A DNA stretch of 43,825 nucleotides from Promethearchaeota archaeon (GTDB taxonomy: Archaea; Asgardarchaeota; Lokiarchaeia; Sigyniarchaeales; Promethearchaeaceae), in the NCBI GenBank assembly GCA_018238965.1, contig JABCSI010000004.1, forward strand, positions 1 to 43,825, in the 5' to 3' direction. The translations under genes and the position numbers were made by a program. This document shows positions 21,453 through 30,777 of this stretch, in pieces. The notes beneath the pieces are model-generated. The model saw only the letters and a list, made by a program, of their open reading frames with translations. It ran no database searches and had not been told where the DNA came from. Within the stretch, counting starts at the first letter, position 1. The number at the start of each line of letters is the position of its first letter.

Positions 21453-24404
21453 ATGAAAGAAGAAATTGAAGTCACCACCACAACCGAAGAAATTGAAGAC
21501 ACTACATTTATTTGGGCCTATACTAAGCAAGAAATTTATGAGAAATTCGGAACTCATCCCAATATGGGCCTTTCGGGGGATCAAGCCGCTCAAAATTTGG
21601 AGAAATTTGGTTCAAACGAATTAAAACTGAAAAAAGGCTCTTTTGTGAAACAATATATTGCCCCTTTGTTTAACTGGTTGATTATACTCTATCTTATTTC
21701 GGCTGCGATTATGCTCATAGCCAGTATTGTGACTGACACCGATAATATGAGTTTAGTTTATGTCACATTGTTTGCCGTGGTTGCAAATATAGTCGTTGCC
21801 GTTTATCAACAGGCTCGTGCGACGAAAAAACTGGAAGCTCTCCAATCCATGGCTGCACCGAAGACGTGGGTCATTCGCGATGGTCAAATCGAGGAATTAT
21901 TCTCCATAAATATCGTGGTGGGCGATTTGCTCAAACTTGCAACTGGTGATCAGGTGCCCGCCGATGCTCGCATCGTATCTTCCACGGATTTACGGGTGAA
22001 TGAAGCATCCCTTACCGGAGAAAGTGAACTAGTGGCTAAAAATCACGGGCAAGCTTTGGGAAACCGCGATTTGCACCTGCAAAACCAAGAAAATATACTG
22101 TTTTACGGAACTTTTATCGTTACGGGACATTGCATTGCGATAGTTTTTGCGACAGGGGCAGATACTGAAATCGGCAAAATTTCGGTTGGAATGCAGGATA
22201 TTGAAAATGCGGAAATTCCAATTCGGGCGAAAATGGATAATCTTGGGAAGTGGTTCGGCATCTCCATCATTCTTCTCTGGGTTGGCACCCTAATATATCT
22301 GAAAGTGAACACCGGGCAAATAGAATTCGTTCAGAGCCTGAATGCCGCCATGAGTATTATGCCCGTGAATATTCCGGTGTTAGTTACTGTGATTATGCTA
22401 TCTGGAGTCTTGTCCATGGCTGAACACGGGGTTATTGTGCGCAACATTGCGGCAGTGGATAGTTTGGGTCGAGTAAGTGTTATTTGCACTGATAAAACGG
22501 GCACTCTTACGAAAAGCCAGATGAGCGTGCAGTATGTGTGGACCAGGGGCTCAACCTTTAAAATTACAGGCAGTGGTTACAATCCTACGGGGGATGTGAT
22601 CCTGGTGGATATTCCGAATCATCCCCAGAAAGTGGAAAATATTGCCGATTTTCCCCATCTGGAGTTCCTCATTAAATCTGGCTACCTAAATAATAATTCT
22701 ATGCTGATGAAATATCAGTTCGAGGTCGAAAAACGCCGTAGGAAGGAGATCGTGGAAGATTGGAAAATAATTGGCAGCGCAACTGAGGGATCACTCCAAA
22801 CCCTTGCTAAAAAGACTGGAATAACTCACAAAGATGGGGTGGACATCAGGAAGAAGTATTTGGAAGTCATCGAATTTCCCTTTTCCTCCGATATGAAGCG
22901 GATGACCAAGGTGTTCCAAGACAAGGCCACCGGAGAAGTTATTTCCTTTACCAAGGGCGCCAGCGAATATCTCATCACCAATTGTGACTATCTTCTGGGC
23001 AATGATCAGGAGGCATTTGAGTTTAGCATCGATCTCCGGCTGATTATTATGAACATCATCAATGAATACGCCACAAAGGGATATCGCATCTTGAGTTTTG
23101 CCTATAAACCACTGGATTACATCCCCGAGGATCTGGAGTCAAAGCGGGATGAAATGGAGGACGGTTTGGTTTACATCGGATTCGTGGCGATAATTGATCC
23201 TCCCCGTGAGGGCGTGCAAGACGCAATTGATCAGTGCCATGATGCAGGGATTGATGTGGTTATGATCACCGGTGATAGTTTACCTACTGCCAAGGCAATT
23301 TCGAAATCCATCCATATTCTTTCCGATCCTTCTGAAGAGGTAATGGATGGCAATCAAATCCACAAACTGGATGTTGAAGTGCCCTTAGAAAAGGTGAAAG
23401 TCTTTTCCCGTGTTATTCCGAAGAATAAAAAAGACATCGTGGAAAAATATCAGAAAAAAGGAAAAGTTGTCGCAATGACAGGAGATGGGGTCAACGACGC
23501 TCTAGCACTCAATCTATCTGATGTGGGTGTTGCCATGGGGATTTCAGGAACTGATGTGGCGAAGCAAGCCTCAGATATGGTGATCTCAGACGATTCCTTC
23601 ATTTCTATCGTAGAAGGGGTCCGTCGTGGGCGTGGCATCTTCGCAAATATTCGATCCGTGGTCTTTTATTTTATTTGCATCAATATATTCGAAGGATTGG
23701 TGAATCTCATCTTGTCCGTGTATCTGAATCTGCCATATTGGTTCGATCCCGAATTTTTGCAGCTCTTTTTATTAATTTCGGCGACCCTGCATTCCTTGAC
23801 CGGAGTAATACTAACCTTCGATTCAACTTCGGACGAAGTTATGAAGGAAGAACCCCGGGACAGTCAAGAAATCATCTCTCGCACGTTTCTTGTCCTATTA
23901 TTCAGCTACGGGGCATTTTTAATGACCACCATGTTCGGATTATATTTTCTGGTATCTAAGGGAACTTATCCTTTGTTTGACGTGAATATATCCCTAGGTG
24001 CTCTGGATGCGTTTTATCCCTTCACCGATTCCACTTTAGCTTATTGGGAAGGCACTGATAGAACAATCGCAAAAACCCTAACCATGCTTTGCACCACTAT
24101 ATTTATCGCAGAATATGTAATGGCCCTTCAGATTCGCCGTCCGAATAAAAGTCTCTGGCGTTCTTTACATGAGGATATGAATTGGGTGATTTATTTGCTG
24201 GGTATTGGATTATTTGGCTTCCTACTTTCCATAATGTATGTCCCGGGCTGGCAATTGCTCTTTTATGATTTTGGATTTAAGTTCCAGATTATGTTCCTAC
24301 ATATCCTCGATTTGTTGGTGTGCATAGTATTTGCGTTCTTTGGCTGTATATTACCTTTTGAATTTGTGAAATGGATTGCCCGGAAACAAGGCGTCTTTTT
24401 CTAA
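21453..24404 (+). CDS. P-type cation-transporting ATPase with altered ion-site residues
   Basis: A 983-residue integral membrane pump in the P2/P3 style. Domain order: cytoplasmic Cation_ATPase_N segment (about 24-70), M1-M2, actuator domain with TGES at 188-191, M3-M4, P domain with the phosphorylated D347 in CTDKTGTLT, N domain (about 365-560), hinge TGDGVND at 676-682, then M5-M10. By hand alignment with SERCA, M4 reads MPVNIPVLVT where Ca2+ pumps have IPEGLPAVVT, so the M4 glutamate is absent. M5 keeps N and E (INIFEG, E747). M6 reads ISATLHSLTG where SERCA has VNLVTDGLPA, so the N/T/D set is S/L/H (H780). The transported ion therefore cannot be inferred; it resembles P3 proton pumps at M4 only. 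The stop codon overlaps the start of the LRR gene. Confidence 0.92.
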   Translation: MKEEIEVTTTTEEIEDTTFIWAYTKQEIYEKFGTHPNMGLSGDQAAQNLEKFGSNELKLKKGSFVKQYIAPLFNWLIILYLISAAIMLIASIVTDTDNMSLVYVTLFAVVANIVVAVYQQARATKKLEALQSMAAPKTWVIRDGQIEELFSINIVVGDLLKLATGDQVPADARIVSSTDLRVNEASLTGESELVAKNHGQALGNRDLHLQNQENILFYGTFIVTGHCIAIVFATGADTEIGKISVGMQDIENAEIPIRAKMDNLGKWFGISIILLWVGTLIYLKVNTGQIEFVQSLNAAMSIMPVNIPVLVTVIMLSGVLSMAEHGVIVRNIAAVDSLGRVSVICTDKTGTLTKSQMSVQYVWTRGSTFKITGSGYNPTGDVILVDIPNHPQKVENIADFPHLEFLIKSGYLNNNSMLMKYQFEVEKRRRKEIVEDWKIIGSATEGSLQTLAKKTGITHKDGVDIRKKYLEVIEFPFSSDMKRMTKVFQDKATGEVISFTKGASEYLITNCDYLLGNDQEAFEFSIDLRLIIMNIINEYATKGYRILSFAYKPLDYIPEDLESKRDEMEDGLVYIGFVAIIDPPREGVQDAIDQCHDAGIDVVMITGDSLPTAKAISKSIHILSDPSEEVMDGNQIHKLDVEVPLEKVKVFSRVIPKNKKDIVEKYQKKGKVVAMTGDGVNDALALNLSDVGVAMGISGTDVAKQASDMVISDDSFISIVEGVRRGRGIFANIRSVVFYFICINIFEGLVNLILSVYLNLPYWFDPEFLQLFLLISATLHSLTGVILTFDSTSDEVMKEEPRDSQEIISRTFLVLLFSYGAFLMTTMFGLYFLVSKGTYPLFDVNISLGALDAFYPFTDSTLAYWEGTDRTIAKTLTMLCTTIFIAEYVMALQIRRPNKSLWRSLHEDMNWVIYLLGIGLFGFLLSIMYVPGWQLLFYDFGFKFQIMFLHILDLLVCIVFAFFGCILPFEFVKWIARKQGVFF

Positions 24405-27256
24405 TGAATAGAATTACCGGTTTGGAGACCCTAGTTAACCTTAAATCGTTAGATCTCAAAAAAAATCTAATCACCGAGATCACCGGCTTAGAAACCCTAA
24501 ACAACCTTAAATCGTTAGATCTAAGCAACAACAACCTCAACGAAATTACCGGGTTGAAGAACTTAGCAAAACTCGAGTCTTTATCTCTAAACAAAAACCA
24601 AATCACCAAGATTAGCGGTCTGGAATCCCTTAGTAACCTTATACTGCTTTATCTCAATTATAACCTCATCACTGAAATCAGTGGAATGGAAACCTTAACA
24701 GATCTCGATGTGTTTTATATTCAAAATAACCAGCTCATCGAGATCATTGGAATGGAAAAACAAACCAAACTCCGAACACTAAATATTGAAAATAATTACC
24801 TTACCGATATCACGGGTTTAGATTCTTTATGCAATCTTAATGAGATTATTTTAACTGGAAACCCAATTTCATTAGTCGTTTTCGATGCAATTAATTTATG
24901 TTACGGAACTAATTTCGCCCAAAAATGTGTGAATTATAGTCGAAAGCACTTTCGTATAACCCCTATTATTGAAAGATCTGAAATTAATCTTGCCCCAATT
25001 AGCGAAATCCTAGATGAGCGCGTGGATATGGAACAAAATTATGTAACGGTTCATGGGAAAAAATATGTTATGGATGATGGAATGCTTTTTCTAGAAAACA
25101 AAGAAATTACGCAATTCGAAGATATAGTTGGCTTGGAGACTCTGACCAATATTACAGGGTTATTTTTAAGAAGAAATCGTTTGACATCTATTCCCGATTG
25201 GATCTGTCAATTGAAACAGTTGGATTCTTTAGATCTGGGTAGAAACGAAAATCTAGTGATTAGCGATGTCCTGCTGCAATGTAAAAACTTGAAATTCTTA
25301 TTACTCGATGGGACGAAAGTTGAAAATTCATTAGAGGTAATATTTGCACTCATTCCTCAACTTACAGACTTAACACTGACTGAAAATGATAGGGAGGGTT
25401 GTATGCATTTGCATCCAAATGGGGAGATTTCATCTTTGTATTTGGATGGGATCGGTTTGAATGAAGTTCCTGAAATAATAGGCGAGCTAAAAAAACTGGA
25501 GGCTTTATCACTAATCGGGAATAATTTGGAAGATCTTCCTGATTTCTTAGCCAACCTTACCCGATTGAAATATTTGGATGTTCGGGGAAATTCATTTGAG
25601 ACATTTCCTCCCGTAATATTTTCCTTACTACCTTATCTCACAGATTTAGAATGGGACGAAGAGCGTTGGGATAAGATTTGTGATAAAGATGGAAAAAATT
25701 TTTCTTTTAATGGCTTGAACATTAAAGAAATTCCTGACTCGATCGGTCAATTGTATAAGGCAAAAAATATAGACCTAAGTGAAAATTCATTAACAAATCT
25801 CCCCGAAAGTATTGATCAACTTACTTCTCTCAAAGAATTAAATCTCAGCAATAACAATTTTCACAATCTCCCTGAATATATCGGTTTACTCACAAATTTG
25901 CAAAAATTAGATGTTAGCAATAATAATCTCCACTATCTCCCTGACTCGATTGGTCTACTCACAAATTTGCAAGAATTAGATGTTAGCAATAACGATTTAT
26001 CGACCTTACCAGAGACTCTGATAAATTTGAAGAGATTAACTCACTTAACCGTCTATAATAATTCTTTTTATTTCTATCCCAATTGCATCTATTCATTATT
26101 GCAGCAAATTCGCTTTTTTAACTTGCAAGAAGAAGAACCCAGAGATTATGAGGAAGAATATTATTATCGTGAGGAAGAGGAAGAAGATGAATTTGATGAA
26201 TCAATTGACTTTCAACCAGGTGAAATCTTGAGGATTAATCAATATGGAGAAGTCGGAGGATTAAATCTTGCTTATCTTGGTTTAAACTATACTATTAAAT
26301 TTAATCGTGAAGAAAATTTGAGGAAGAATGGAATGGAGGAAATAATTGGATTGAATTTTGCACGATTGAAATTAACCAAAATTCCTGAATTTACTGACGA
26401 TTTATCTAATCTCGCAATTCTAGATCTTAGTAATTCTGATTTGGAACAGATCCCAGAATCTATCGGAAATTTAACAAATTTAAGGGCATTAACTCTTAAA
26501 TTTGCAAAAACTATTAAAAAATTACCTGAATCAATCGGAAAGTTAACTAATTTAGTGTATTTAAATTTAACTGCAATACCCATTACTGCTTTACCTGATT
26601 CAATCGGAAATTTAACCAATTTAGCGTATCTAAATTTAACAGCAACATCTATTACTGCATTACCTGAATCAATCGGAAATTTAACTAAATTAGTTTATTT
26701 AAATCTCTCATCAACTCGCATCAAGTCTTTTCCCGAATCAATGGAAAATTTATCCAATTTAGTTTATTTAAATCTCTCATCAGCTCGGCTCGCTACTTTT
26801 CCCAAATCAGTGATTAAATCAACACACGCTAAATTCGGCAACCTTCATCCTCAAAATTTTCGACAGATGCCAAAAAACATTTCTAAATTCAAAGACTTGA
26901 CTTATCTAAACCTTGGAAACAACAAAATTCAAGCGCTCCCCGATGAATTGGCTCAATTGACAAAACTCTCAGCAGTTTATATTTGGGCTAATGAATTTTC
27001 TCGAGCATGGGTTGATGAATTAAAAAGATCAGGGGGGATTAAAAGGTATTTTTCCTATCCGATATTATGGATCACGAAATGTCGCAAAGATCTCCCATTG
27101 GATGACTGCGATTTGACACATCCTAAATTGTTTCAATACGCATCATACATTTTGGAGGAGACTGAAAACATAACAACTCCATCCGCAGAACGATTGAGAA
27201 ATAAAATTATTGAGATTCTGAACGAATCGAAAAGAAACCTCGGTATTCTCTTATAG
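24404..27256 (+). CDS. Large leucine-rich-repeat protein, translationally coupled to the P-type ATPase
   Basis: The preferred start is the ATG at 24404-24406, whose A is the last base of the ATPase stop codon (TAATG), a coupling arrangement. An in-frame ATG at 24371, inside the ATPase gene, would add 11 residues. The 950-residue protein begins with 22-residue SDS22/internalin-like repeats (ITGLETLNNLKSLDLSNNNLNE). A linker follows around 170-220, then 23-residue repeats of the LPESIGNLTNLxxLxLS type. An acidic stretch at about 585-610 (EEEYYYREEEEEDEFDE) separates two repeat blocks. There is no signal peptide, membrane helix, GTPase or kinase domain, so it is probably cytoplasmic and acts by binding a partner. 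The C-terminal 80 residues are a non-repeat cap. The partner is likely the pump, by context only. Confidence 0.9.
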   Translation: MNRITGLETLVNLKSLDLKKNLITEITGLETLNNLKSLDLSNNNLNEITGLKNLAKLESLSLNKNQITKISGLESLSNLILLYLNYNLITEISGMETLTDLDVFYIQNNQLIEIIGMEKQTKLRTLNIENNYLTDITGLDSLCNLNEIILTGNPISLVVFDAINLCYGTNFAQKCVNYSRKHFRITPIIERSEINLAPISEILDERVDMEQNYVTVHGKKYVMDDGMLFLENKEITQFEDIVGLETLTNITGLFLRRNRLTSIPDWICQLKQLDSLDLGRNENLVISDVLLQCKNLKFLLLDGTKVENSLEVIFALIPQLTDLTLTENDREGCMHLHPNGEISSLYLDGIGLNEVPEIIGELKKLEALSLIGNNLEDLPDFLANLTRLKYLDVRGNSFETFPPVIFSLLPYLTDLEWDEERWDKICDKDGKNFSFNGLNIKEIPDSIGQLYKAKNIDLSENSLTNLPESIDQLTSLKELNLSNNNFHNLPEYIGLLTNLQKLDVSNNNLHYLPDSIGLLTNLQELDVSNNDLSTLPETLINLKRLTHLTVYNNSFYFYPNCIYSLLQQIRFFNLQEEEPRDYEEEYYYREEEEEDEFDESIDFQPGEILRINQYGEVGGLNLAYLGLNYTIKFNREENLRKNGMEEIIGLNFARLKLTKIPEFTDDLSNLAILDLSNSDLEQIPESIGNLTNLRALTLKFAKTIKKLPESIGKLTNLVYLNLTAIPITALPDSIGNLTNLAYLNLTATSITALPESIGNLTKLVYLNLSSTRIKSFPESMENLSNLVYLNLSSARLATFPKSVIKSTHAKFGNLHPQNFRQMPKNISKFKDLTYLNLGNNKIQALPDELAQLTKLSAVYIWANEFSRAWVDELKRSGGIKRYFSYPILWITKCRKDLPLDDCDLTHPKLFQYASYILEETENITTPSAERLRNKIIEILNESKRNLGILL
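26522..26800 (+). repeat. Near-identical 69-base repeats inside the LRR gene
   Basis: Four successive units of 69 bases (23 codons) start with TTACCTGAATCAATCGG or close variants and end in AATTTAACTGC or AATCTCTCATC. The similarity is at the DNA level as well as the protein level, which indicates recent unit duplication. Similar 69-base doublets occur at about 25866-26003, and a 66-base doublet at about 24410-24540. Confidence 0.75.
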
Positions 27257-27723: not shown

Positions 27724-29118
27724 ATGGCACCCGAAATACCCGAAGATCCTATCGAAGAAATTCCCAATAAACCATCCACAAATTCCTCAGTAATTCGATT
27801 CAAACACGGATTATCACGGCGAGCAGCGGATCTAATTATTGAAGGGATGCACAATGAAATTATCCCTGTTTATCATGCCCAAAATGTCCTACTCGAATTT
27901 CAGCCCCTGTTCAACCAGTATGACGTATTGATGGGATTGGATTTTGGAGAGCCTCTAGATAAGCCGCTGAAAAAGGACTTAACCAATAAATTAGAACGGT
28001 TATCTGCCCAGATCATGGAAAATCTTCAACCCCAACGACAAGACAATCCTCTAAAATCTTCTTCCCAATCTCCTATTAGTTTCACGGAGCTCTTAGGCAC
28101 ATTTCGTATAAAAGTGATTTACATTATCATTCCCATTATGTTTAATATACTGGTTTCTACGTTTTTGGCATATGCAGCAAAAATTTATGCGGAAATAGAT
28201 ATAAATGTTGCCCTCTTTCCCGATGAAGAAACAGGATGGGAGATCTTGCTAAGTGGATTATTTCCTGTGGCTATCTCCGCGGTTTTTATTATAATAATAT
28301 GGTTTCTTATCAAGAAGTTTGGAATGATCGCGTTCAAAATAATAATGGGCATCATCGTCTTCTTCTACAGTTGGTATGGATGTATCTTCTTCATAAGAGT
28401 TTTCTTCAAAATATATGATTCGCGTTTTCCCGTGGAAGAAACAAATATGGCTCTCTTTAATGGATTATTTAACGGTTTATTTTATGGAACGATTATCCTC
28501 TTCTTCTTGCTGATGGTTCTTTTCTTCAAAAATCGTTTGAATATTAAGCAACGCAATGCCATAGTTCTCTTCTATTCAATTTTCATGGGGTCAATCCTTG
28601 GAATTTCGCTCCCGACCTGGACCACCTTTTCCTTTGCTATTTTTCTCTCAATCTGGGATCTTATAACGGTGTTTAAGGGTCCACTGGGTAAGATCGGCCA
28701 GCAAATTAAGGATAATCAAGTTGAAATGCAGGATCGGATTAAATGGATGCTCGACGAGGGGCAAATAGGGGTGGATCAGGTGCAAAACTATACCCAATTT
28801 GTCTCCCTACAAGCGAGTCAAGATGAAGAGGACGTAGAAGATGGGGAAGAGGGGTCAATTGATTTGAAATCCTTGGAAATTGAACTTGGCTCGGGTGATC
28901 TAATCCTATATTCCGCTCTTGTCGCTAATATTTTCGTTAATTACGGGTCATGGTTTTTGGCGGGATTAACCATCCTGGGTGTTTTGGGCGGAGCAGCAAT
29001 GACCTTATATTTATTGATAAAAAGAAAACGAATGTTGCCTGCATTGCCTTTTAGCATGGTCTTTGGTATCGCTTTATTCTTTTTGGGCCGTCTCATCCAA
29101 GTTCTGGTAGCACTTTAA
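27724..29118 (+). CDS. Presenilin-family intramembrane aspartyl protease
   Basis: The 464-residue product has a 125-residue hydrophilic N-terminus and nine predicted helices (about 129-152, 172-196, 199-228, 242-268, 278-299, 300-318, 391-410, 411-432, 440-464), the presenilin topology. All three catalytic motifs are present. SIWDLITVFKGPLGKI at helix 6 has D312 (presenilin YDLVAV...KGPL, here with W for Y). ELGSGDLILYSALVA at helix 7 has D392 (presenilin LGLGDFIFYSVLVG). RMLPALPFSMVFGIALFF carries PAL at 439-441 (presenilin ALPALPISITFG). An acidic 65-residue loop separates helices 6 and 7, where presenilins are cut during maturation. Presenilin is the catalytic subunit of gamma-secretase; archaeal homologues act alone. 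The gene stands by itself. I consider the family assignment strong; substrate and partners are unknown. Confidence 0.9.
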   Translation: MAPEIPEDPIEEIPNKPSTNSSVIRFKHGLSRRAADLIIEGMHNEIIPVYHAQNVLLEFQPLFNQYDVLMGLDFGEPLDKPLKKDLTNKLERLSAQIMENLQPQRQDNPLKSSSQSPISFTELLGTFRIKVIYIIIPIMFNILVSTFLAYAAKIYAEIDINVALFPDEETGWEILLSGLFPVAISAVFIIIIWFLIKKFGMIAFKIIMGIIVFFYSWYGCIFFIRVFFKIYDSRFPVEETNMALFNGLFNGLFYGTIILFFLLMVLFFKNRLNIKQRNAIVLFYSIFMGSILGISLPTWTTFSFAIFLSIWDLITVFKGPLGKIGQQIKDNQVEMQDRIKWMLDEGQIGVDQVQNYTQFVSLQASQDEEDVEDGEEGSIDLKSLEIELGSGDLILYSALVANIFVNYGSWFLAGLTILGVLGGAAMTLYLLIKRKRMLPALPFSMVFGIALFFLGRLIQVLVAL

Positions 29119-29188: not shown

Positions 29189-30619
29189 TTATTCCATGGA
29201 TTGAGTGAAGAGTATAAATTCGTTGGGGATCAAATTTTTGTAAAATTTATTCACAGTATAGGGTTTCTTGGGTTTCTTGGATGCTGAATTGGAATTTATC
29301 AAGGCCGAAATATCATAAATGGGGGTTCCGTAATTTAAAAGCGAGTAGATATCTTCAATTATCACTTCATGGACCTTGGACCAATCTTTGTTGTAGATAA
29401 GCAACGCATGGTTGGAACCATCTTGAGTCTCTTTTTTCAACACCAATATATTCGAATTTTGATAAGGATAATGCACAAGATGTCCCTCTTCGCGCATAAC
29501 AGGATAATTTTGCTTGAGACGGTTTATTTGCGCAATGATGGGTGAAATATCAAAATTAATGGGTTCTTGATCGGACGGAGTGGTTTCCACGACGTGCAAT
29601 TTATTACGGGCACCATGTTCGTACCCCATGGGCATTAGGACGCCCTCGGAAAAGAAGGTGGCAAAGAAATATTTAAACACCAGGATGTCTTGGCGATTCC
29701 CCGACTCCAGGGCCAAACGGGGCGTATCGTGGGATTCTGGGAAACCGATCGATGGGGCAAATTCTCCGTATAGTTTATGTTGCTCCACGCACCAGGGGGC
29801 GGTATAGTCCCACCACTTAGCTGAATTGGCAAAATAATCAAATCCGCAACCCTTCAGATTGAGATGCTGCTCGTAACCTGCTCCTAGGGTTTCCGCCCAA
29901 AATAATACATCGGAGTTAACCTCTTTACCAAATTCAATCAAATTTTTCCAGATTTCGCCCTCGACTTGATATGCGGCATCGCATCGGAAGCCATCAACAC
30001 CCAAATCGAGACAAAATTTCATATAATTCTTCAGGAAAGCCATGATTTCGGAAAGATAGGGCGAATCAAATTGTATTTCGGCGAGATCCCCCCAAATTTG
30101 TACGTCATTGGTATTACCGGGATTTTTTGCATAGGGTCGGGCCACATCGTATCGTAACTCGAACCTTTCGGAGGGGTAGCGTTTTTCATCCACCCGAATG
30201 TCCGCTTTAAGAACCGATTCAAATATTTGCACCGGATTCCCCGTTTCAATTTCAAATAACATCCATTTATGGGCATACCATTGGGGGTGGGATTCCACAG
30301 CATCAATCGCTGTATGATTAATGACCAAGTCCAGCATTACCATTAATCCCTGGGCGTGGGCTTCGGTAACGAATTTTCGGAACGAATTCCATGTTTTACC
30401 ATCTTCTTCGTCAACCGCGAAAAGAGGATCAATTTGGAAATAGTCGTGAATAGCGTATAAAGAGCCAGAAAATCCGAATTTATTAAATGGGTTTATATAA
30501 ATCCATGAAAAACCCATAGATTTGACATGTGGAATTAAGTTATTCCAATTGGGAATGGGGCCTGCTAATCTGGGAAAAATATTATAGATGATCGGAGGAC
30601 TGGATTGATTTTGACTCAT
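29189..30619 (-). CDS. GH13 alpha-amylase family glycosidase or transglycosylase
   Basis: A (beta/alpha)8 GH13 enzyme with the four conserved regions: DLVINHTA (region I), VDGFRCDAAY with the nucleophile D214 (II), FWAETLGAG with the acid/base E243 (III), and PESHDTPR with D298 (IV). The start at ATG 30619 (MSQNQSSPP) is preferred to the GTG three codons upstream, giving 476 residues. There is no signal peptide, so the enzyme is cytoplasmic and probably acts on intracellular alpha-glucan or maltodextrin. YEHGARNKLHVVETTPSD after region IV and the C-terminal beta domain resemble amylase-like proteins of uncertain specificity rather than classical secreted amylases. The gene is divergent from the FtsX cluster and convergent with the presenilin-like gene. 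Substrate preference is open. Confidence 0.88.
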   Translation of the reverse strand: MSQNQSSPPIIYNIFPRLAGPIPNWNNLIPHVKSMGFSWIYINPFNKFGFSGSLYAIHDYFQIDPLFAVDEEDGKTWNSFRKFVTEAHAQGLMVMLDLVINHTAIDAVESHPQWYAHKWMLFEIETGNPVQIFESVLKADIRVDEKRYPSERFELRYDVARPYAKNPGNTNDVQIWGDLAEIQFDSPYLSEIMAFLKNYMKFCLDLGVDGFRCDAAYQVEGEIWKNLIEFGKEVNSDVLFWAETLGAGYEQHLNLKGCGFDYFANSAKWWDYTAPWCVEQHKLYGEFAPSIGFPESHDTPRLALESGNRQDILVFKYFFATFFSEGVLMPMGYEHGARNKLHVVETTPSDQEPINFDISPIIAQINRLKQNYPVMREEGHLVHYPYQNSNILVLKKETQDGSNHALLIYNKDWSKVHEVIIEDIYSLLNYGTPIYDISALINSNSASKKPKKPYTVNKFYKNLIPNEFILFTQSME

Positions 30620-30777
30620 TGCGCACACTTTGGTATTGGTTGAACATGATGCAAAATGCGCTTTCGGTTAAAAATACGTTGAAAATTGAGTCATTGTCAT
30701 TGGGTGACCCACAGAGTTAGCATGGCTTGATAACCAATAAAAATAAAGGAGAGGTAACCAAGAGCTAAATAACTCCC

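Follow-up and report, generated by a model that had tools for sequence, protein, structure and literature searches.

A lokiarchaeal presenilin with its own N-terminal domain, an ordinary representative of a family widespread in Asgard archaea

The 43,825-nucleotide stretch of archaeal DNA analysed here (the window) contains an open reading frame with an ATG start (27724-29118, + strand, 464 aa) that represents a gene for a presenilin-like GxGD intramembrane aspartyl protease. Its product is a real presenilin, of an ordinary kind within a family that is widespread in Asgards, apart from one addition specific to its lineage. From the homology, motifs, predicted fold, distribution and gene neighbourhood described below, we consider it likely to be a vertically inherited Asgard presenilin which would most probably work as a single subunit; the proposed activity, membrane topology and independence of partners are our reading of those observations. 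Presenilin is the catalytic protease of gamma-secretase, a complex linked to Alzheimer's disease which cuts the amyloid precursor and Notch and whose origin is not settled. That origin is where the interest of the wider family lies. Presenilin homologues in Asgards were published in 2021 for Heimdall, Loki, Odin and MK-D1 (PMC7997004, TC 1.A.54).

Judged by its sequence, the window protein is a member of the presenilin family. A Pfam scan returned PF01080 (Presenilin) as the sole family (71.5 bits, the cut-off being 34.3; E 7.3e-20), and a phmmer search of PDB sequences found only presenilins significant (human PSEN1, E 8e-10), aligning in two stretches which pair D312 with PSEN1 D257 and D392 with PSEN1 D385. 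The archaeal PSH profiles (NCBIfam NF041679 and PF06550) gave no match, nor did the signal peptide peptidase family (A22B, PF04258) appear in the Pfam scan, and the window protein reads LPALP, not QPALL. When a profile built from 24 Asgard proteins, used for both genome and PDB-sequence searches, was run against the latter, it retrieved PSEN1 (2.8e-39), PSEN2 (2e-34) and methanogen PSH (2e-5), with no match to SPPL2A. Foldseek searches with the predicted model placed PSEN1 in the top 13 positions (1e-7), followed by PSH at rank 14 (5e-5) and SPPL2a at 3e-3. The first-pass annotation, made from the letters of the window, had suggested a presenilin rather than a signal peptide peptidase and had named Foldseek as a means of checking this; Pfam, the profile search and Foldseek all concur. 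However, target-normalised TM-scores were similar for PSEN1 and PSH (about 0.7), so that sequence and local geometry contribute to the preference for PSEN1 no less than overall fold does.

The AlphaFold2 model, computed from 58 aligned Asgard relatives (pLDDT 84.7, pTM 0.76), contains a membrane core (residues 135-463; 28126-29112, + strand as for all features of the gene) whose top Foldseek matches are human PSEN1. Its nine predicted helices, the number first proposed from the sequence, span residues 135-155, 171-199, 201-234, 242-268, 274-295, 298-318, 390-407, 410-433 and 442-463. The putative first catalytic aspartate, D312 (28657-28659), falls in the SIWD of helix 6 and is followed by KGPL (residues 318-321; 28675-28686). 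GSGD (residues 389-392; 28888-28899), aligned with GLGD385 of PSEN1, holds the putative second, D392, and PAL occupies residues 439-441 (29038-29046), where most Asgard relatives have PGL. All of these motifs had been placed correctly from the start, as had those of the human proteins, PSEN1 and PSEN2 indeed reading KGPL and LPALPIS. Residues D312, G319, P320, G389, G391, D392, L441 and P442 were invariant among 58 Asgard homologues. Tryptophan precedes the helix-6 aspartate in the window protein (WD, not YD), a residue found at this place in 43 of 104 Asgard proteins, with tyrosine in 47. Short predicted strands before helix 1 (residues 127-130, within LGTFRIK; 28102-28113) and just before GxGD (residues 385-388; 28876-28887) are present in both AlphaFold models, that of the window protein and that of the lokiarchaeal relative G157.

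The presence of motifs resembling those of human presenilin, PAL and KGPL, could raise the suspicion that the gene stems from a contaminating eukaryote or was recently acquired from one. The window makes up contig 93 of a 3.85 Mb genome that is 87% complete with 1.4% contamination and falls in the genus of Ca. Harpocratesius repetitus. NCBI taxonomy assigns the latter to Promethearchaeales, the lokiarchaeal order, and its complete genome forms one contig of 4,361,485 bases. H. repetitus was the sole match when genome contigs were scanned with the window protein alone, and the two genomes have in common the gene order U32 peptidase, hypothetical protein, calcium-type P-type ATPase, presenilin, amylase-like protein, two FtsX and ABC ATPase. 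Because this order is kept in a complete 4.36 Mb genome, contamination is very unlikely, and we regard it as ruled out by synteny; the uninterrupted reading frame, the archaeal neighbours and a tree position inside Lokiarchaeales leave a negligible probability for contamination and recent transfer alike. The Asgard host suggested by the first reading of the window is supported.

Several neighbouring genes deserve mention in their own right. The calcium-type P-type ATPase (21453-24404, + strand; PMR1/SERCA-like models) lies upstream of presenilin in both genomes of the genus, but not beside it in the g3 relatives examined. Between it and presenilin, the window has an extra gene for a 961-residue leucine-rich-repeat protein with an acidic linker (24371-27256, + strand), absent at the matching place in H. 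repetitus. An amylase-like (GH13) gene (29189-30628, - strand), with weak matches to glycogen debranching and alpha-amylase domains, faces presenilin tail to tail in the genomes of g1 and g3 and is common to these two genera only. A comparison of presenilin neighbourhoods yielded no conserved neighbour, common across Asgard families, that might hint at substrates. Further away, a SepSecS-like gene (O-phosphoseryl-tRNA(Sec) selenium transferase, 1e-104; 1306-2721, + strand) suggests selenocysteine use in this archaeon.

The family to which the window protein belongs is broadly distributed. The 24-protein profile detected a presenilin gene, nearly always in single copy, in 179 of 228 Asgard genomes, while the Pfam Presenilin model matched 166 of the 228 as opposed to 14 of 165 other archaeal genomes, the latter mostly weakly. 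PF01080 was matched by all 58 of 58 diverse Asgard members. Among viral contigs, 33 pattern matches included no relative. One Asgard genome (G042) encodes a strong PSH/SPP-type protein (C15:4934-5767, f15; PF06550, 1e-71) besides its presenilin, and both protease families therefore coexist there.

It had been proposed that the window protein is closer to eukaryotic presenilin than are known archaeal forms. It is indeed nearer than methanogen PSH, but this nearness is common to the whole Asgard family, and the notion of a specially eukaryote-like protein found no support in the comparison with its relatives. Against PSEN1, the window protein scored 31 bits and its g3 relatives 45-54; scores among PGL-bearing proteins from other Asgard groups reached 58 (G177). 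Likewise, when a PGL-bearing lokiarchaeal relative of the ordinary type was modelled, its model matched PSEN1 structures (2.6e-8, query TM 0.65) as well as or better than that of the window protein. Nor are the motifs confined to one lineage. The 104 distinct Asgard proteins comprise 84 with GPI and 18 with GPL, 89 with PGL and 12 with PAL; GPL and PAL occur together in nine, of which five belong to the window clade (genera g1 and g3) and four to a distant group (f21, f23, f24), while close members of the f1 family (G086, G087, G092) have PGL. [KR]GPL is also found in the non-Asgard archaeal family f44, whose short GxGD proteins (L124, L125, L128, L130) carry it with LPGLT and group within the presenilin clan rather than with PSH. 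This spread, coupled with the higher PSEN1 scores of PGL-bearing relatives, means that KGPL and PAL are not marks of special kinship, and we rejected their combination as a sign of a particular tie to eukaryotes.

Phylogenetic placement was addressed with two trees, rooted with either PSH and SPP or PSH-like archaeal proteins. Only three eukaryotic presenilin rows entered these trees. The rows for Arabidopsis presenilin and human SPP are provisional sequences; those for PSH and for human PSEN1 and PSEN2 were consistent with retrieved sequences, that of PSEN1 being shortened in the loop. The five PAL-bearing f1 proteins of the window clade were nested, on a long branch, inside Lokiarchaeales (96/91 with the PSH and SPP outgroup, 97/95 with the PSH-like one). 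Eukaryotic presenilins fell outside the main Asgard clade, without a well-supported position, on trees whose branches are long. PSH-like proteins were split from a clan of Asgard, f44 and eukaryotic proteins (98/92); nesting within methanogen PSH, which the first-pass annotation had named as evidence against its own proposal, was accordingly not seen. Grouping beside eukaryotes, which it had named as support, was not recovered either.

The window clade, of the Harpocratesius type with KGPL and PAL, might nonetheless be the specific sister of eukaryotic presenilin, in which case its motifs would go back to their shared ancestor. In favour are KGPL and LPALP, identical to those of PSEN1, and the AU test, which left a grouping of eukaryotes with this clade unrejected (p 0.29, 0.20). 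The same test did not reject eukaryotes with f21/f23/f24 (p 0.39), an equally allowed and better-fitting arrangement, nor eukaryotes with f15/f16 (p 0.09), Asgards and eukaryotes as one clade (p 0.40) or Asgards alone (p 0.37). We hold a specific sister relationship to be decidedly improbable, given the nesting of the clade among Lokiarchaeales in the best trees, the higher PSEN1 scores reached by other Asgard proteins that have PGL, and the PGL of close family members. PAL and PGL require two changes on the trees, one of them, by tree shape, at the base of the window clade, and KGPL and PAL probably came to be combined by convergence within Lokiarchaeales.

The history of the gene within that order is less straightforward. 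Two presenilin settings exist in f1: G086 and G087 have neighbours in common with f3, while the g1 and g3 gene lies elsewhere, with the amylase-like gene. The PGL type thus occupies an f3-like locus (L138, L139) and the PAL type another (L140, L141, L032 and the window). Given the long branch and a locus different from that of other f1 members, strict orthology of the window clade is not certain. A paralogue, or a transfer within the order, may have replaced the ancestral lokiarchaeal presenilin, as the differing neighbourhoods and the splitting of f1 in the trees would suggest. However, f1 monophyly was not rejected (AU p 0.18), which allows both such a replacement and relocation with fast evolution, and each genome has one copy; replacement is a possibility we take seriously, although we lean towards the same gene having moved and evolved rapidly. 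Either way, a history of paralogy or transfer is compatible with the function of a lone protease proposed below.

The one addition that sets the window protein apart is its N-terminus, where 134 residues precede helix 1. The 125 residues originally estimated were somewhat short, but a long N-terminus is present, and residues 22-101 (27787-28026) are predicted to form a folded, genus-specific beta-alpha-beta-beta-alpha domain (AlphaFold2, pLDDT 82-94). It was found in two of the 79 genomes of the order, namely the two of the genus, and is 32% identical between them as opposed to 71% for the tree core columns. For this domain, Foldseek matched ferredoxin-like, Pcc1 and KH-like structures only, none of them significantly. 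We regard it as a probable regulatory or binding module peculiar to the lineage, which would probably serve in recruitment or regulation on the cytosolic side.

A second proposal concerned the loop between helices 6 and 7 (residues 322-384; 28687-28875), described as acidic and lying where presenilins self-cleave. Acidic it is, but the hydrophobic self-cleavage segment is absent, its best 11-residue mean hydropathy being -0.12 against +1.63 in PSEN1. The suggestion is therefore weakened, and self-cleavage of the PSEN1 kind is unlikely. The partners of gamma-secretase are similarly elusive: neither APH-1 nor PEN-2 matched above cut-off in 228 Asgard genomes, in searches that had no positive control and from which diverged relatives may escape given the Pfam models used, and several matches below cut-off were short or had in-frame stops. 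The nicastrin small-lobe model (PF18266) was silent in 224 genomes and equally in all controls. The window protein might still form the centre of a gamma-secretase-like assembly in Asgards whose other subunits escape recognition: it is near PSEN1 in sequence and predicted fold, and the partners of a single-copy protein could be encoded elsewhere. Set against this are the lack of APH-1 and PEN-2 matches above cut-off, the silence of the nicastrin search, albeit one lacking a positive control, and neighbourhoods with no gene common across families; we consider such a complex unlikely. With no APH-1 or PEN-2 match and no self-cleavage segment, a lone enzyme resembling PSH is the best guess.

In presenilin and PSH, a transmembrane helix is cut by water activated between two aspartates. 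The D312/D392 pair, its GxGD and PAL context and a predicted fold as in these enzymes imply the same for the window protein. We propose that one type of subunit would most likely suffice, acting alone or in a homo-oligomer, and that D312 of helix 6 and D392 of helix 7 would activate water to cut the transmembrane helix of a substrate. This helix would unwind against the strand before helix 7, and the PAL loop would shape the active site. In gamma-secretase, the strand before helix 7 forms a hybrid sheet with a substrate strand (PMC7248309). In the window protein, the predicted strand before helix 1 may lie on the pre-helix-7 strand as a structural or stand-in partner. A different role, in which the protein chiefly serves as a calcium leak channel that offsets the calcium-type P-type ATPase just upstream, might be envisaged from the occurrence of this PMR1/SERCA-like gene in both genomes of the genus, and work cited in PMC7997004 claims channel activity for presenilin-like GxGD proteases. 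Yet the catalytic aspartates are invariant, the adjacency of the ATPase is limited to this genus and, in the window, the leucine-rich-repeat gene intervenes; we see only a slim chance for such a channel and retain the protease as the preferred reading.

The structural prokaryotic model of presenilin in use is a methanogen enzyme without PAL and KGPL. The Asgard family offers a better model of the ancestor, as it is far nearer presenilin in sequence, compact and probably partner-free, and it could be used to ask directly whether presenilin functioned by itself before it acquired APH-1, PEN-2 and nicastrin. To this, the window protein adds a natural contrast of PAL and PGL among close relatives, as well as a lineage-specific soluble domain. 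The family is proposed to be phylum-wide in Asgards and to constitute, together with the presenilin of eukaryotes and a small group of other archaea, a [KR]GP[LI] clan apart from methanogen-type PSH. We tentatively suggest, as a scenario falling somewhat short of an even chance, that eukaryotic presenilin came from an Asgard presenilin of this clan that was already a lone protease, that gamma-secretase arose by adding partners and a self-cleaving loop, and that the genus described here made a second, independent addition of a control domain, at the N-terminus.

Among known systems, eukaryotic presenilin (PSEN1/PSEN2, MEROPS A22A, PF01080), the catalytic subunit of gamma-secretase, is the best PDB match of the window protein by sequence and by Foldseek, and has in common with it nine helices, two aspartates, GxGD, KGPL and LPALP. 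The window protein departs from PSEN1 in having WD for YD (W being common in Asgards) and GSGD for GLGD, and from eukaryotic presenilin in lacking the hydrophobic self-cleavage segment and in possessing an N-terminal domain of its own, while Asgard genomes have no recognisable APH-1 or PEN-2. The SPP/SPPL proteases (A22B; SPPL2a, 9k92) share the fold and catalytic aspartates but read QPALL where the window protein reads LPALP, and gave no PDB profile match. The methanogen PSH (MCMJR1, 4hyg; NF041679/PF06550) has the same GxGD protease fold and, purified on its own, is active as a single protein and works without endoproteolysis (PMC2947513). It differs in lacking KGPL, as the first-pass annotation had noted and its sequence confirms, and an exact PAL, its discoverers having reported no obvious PAL but PPL (PMC2947513), as well as in its far weaker profile match (2e-5 versus 2.8e-39) and its separation in the trees. 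The Asgard homologues of PMC7997004, whose typical members read [KR]GPI and PGL and are without the N-terminal domain, belong to the same family as the window protein.
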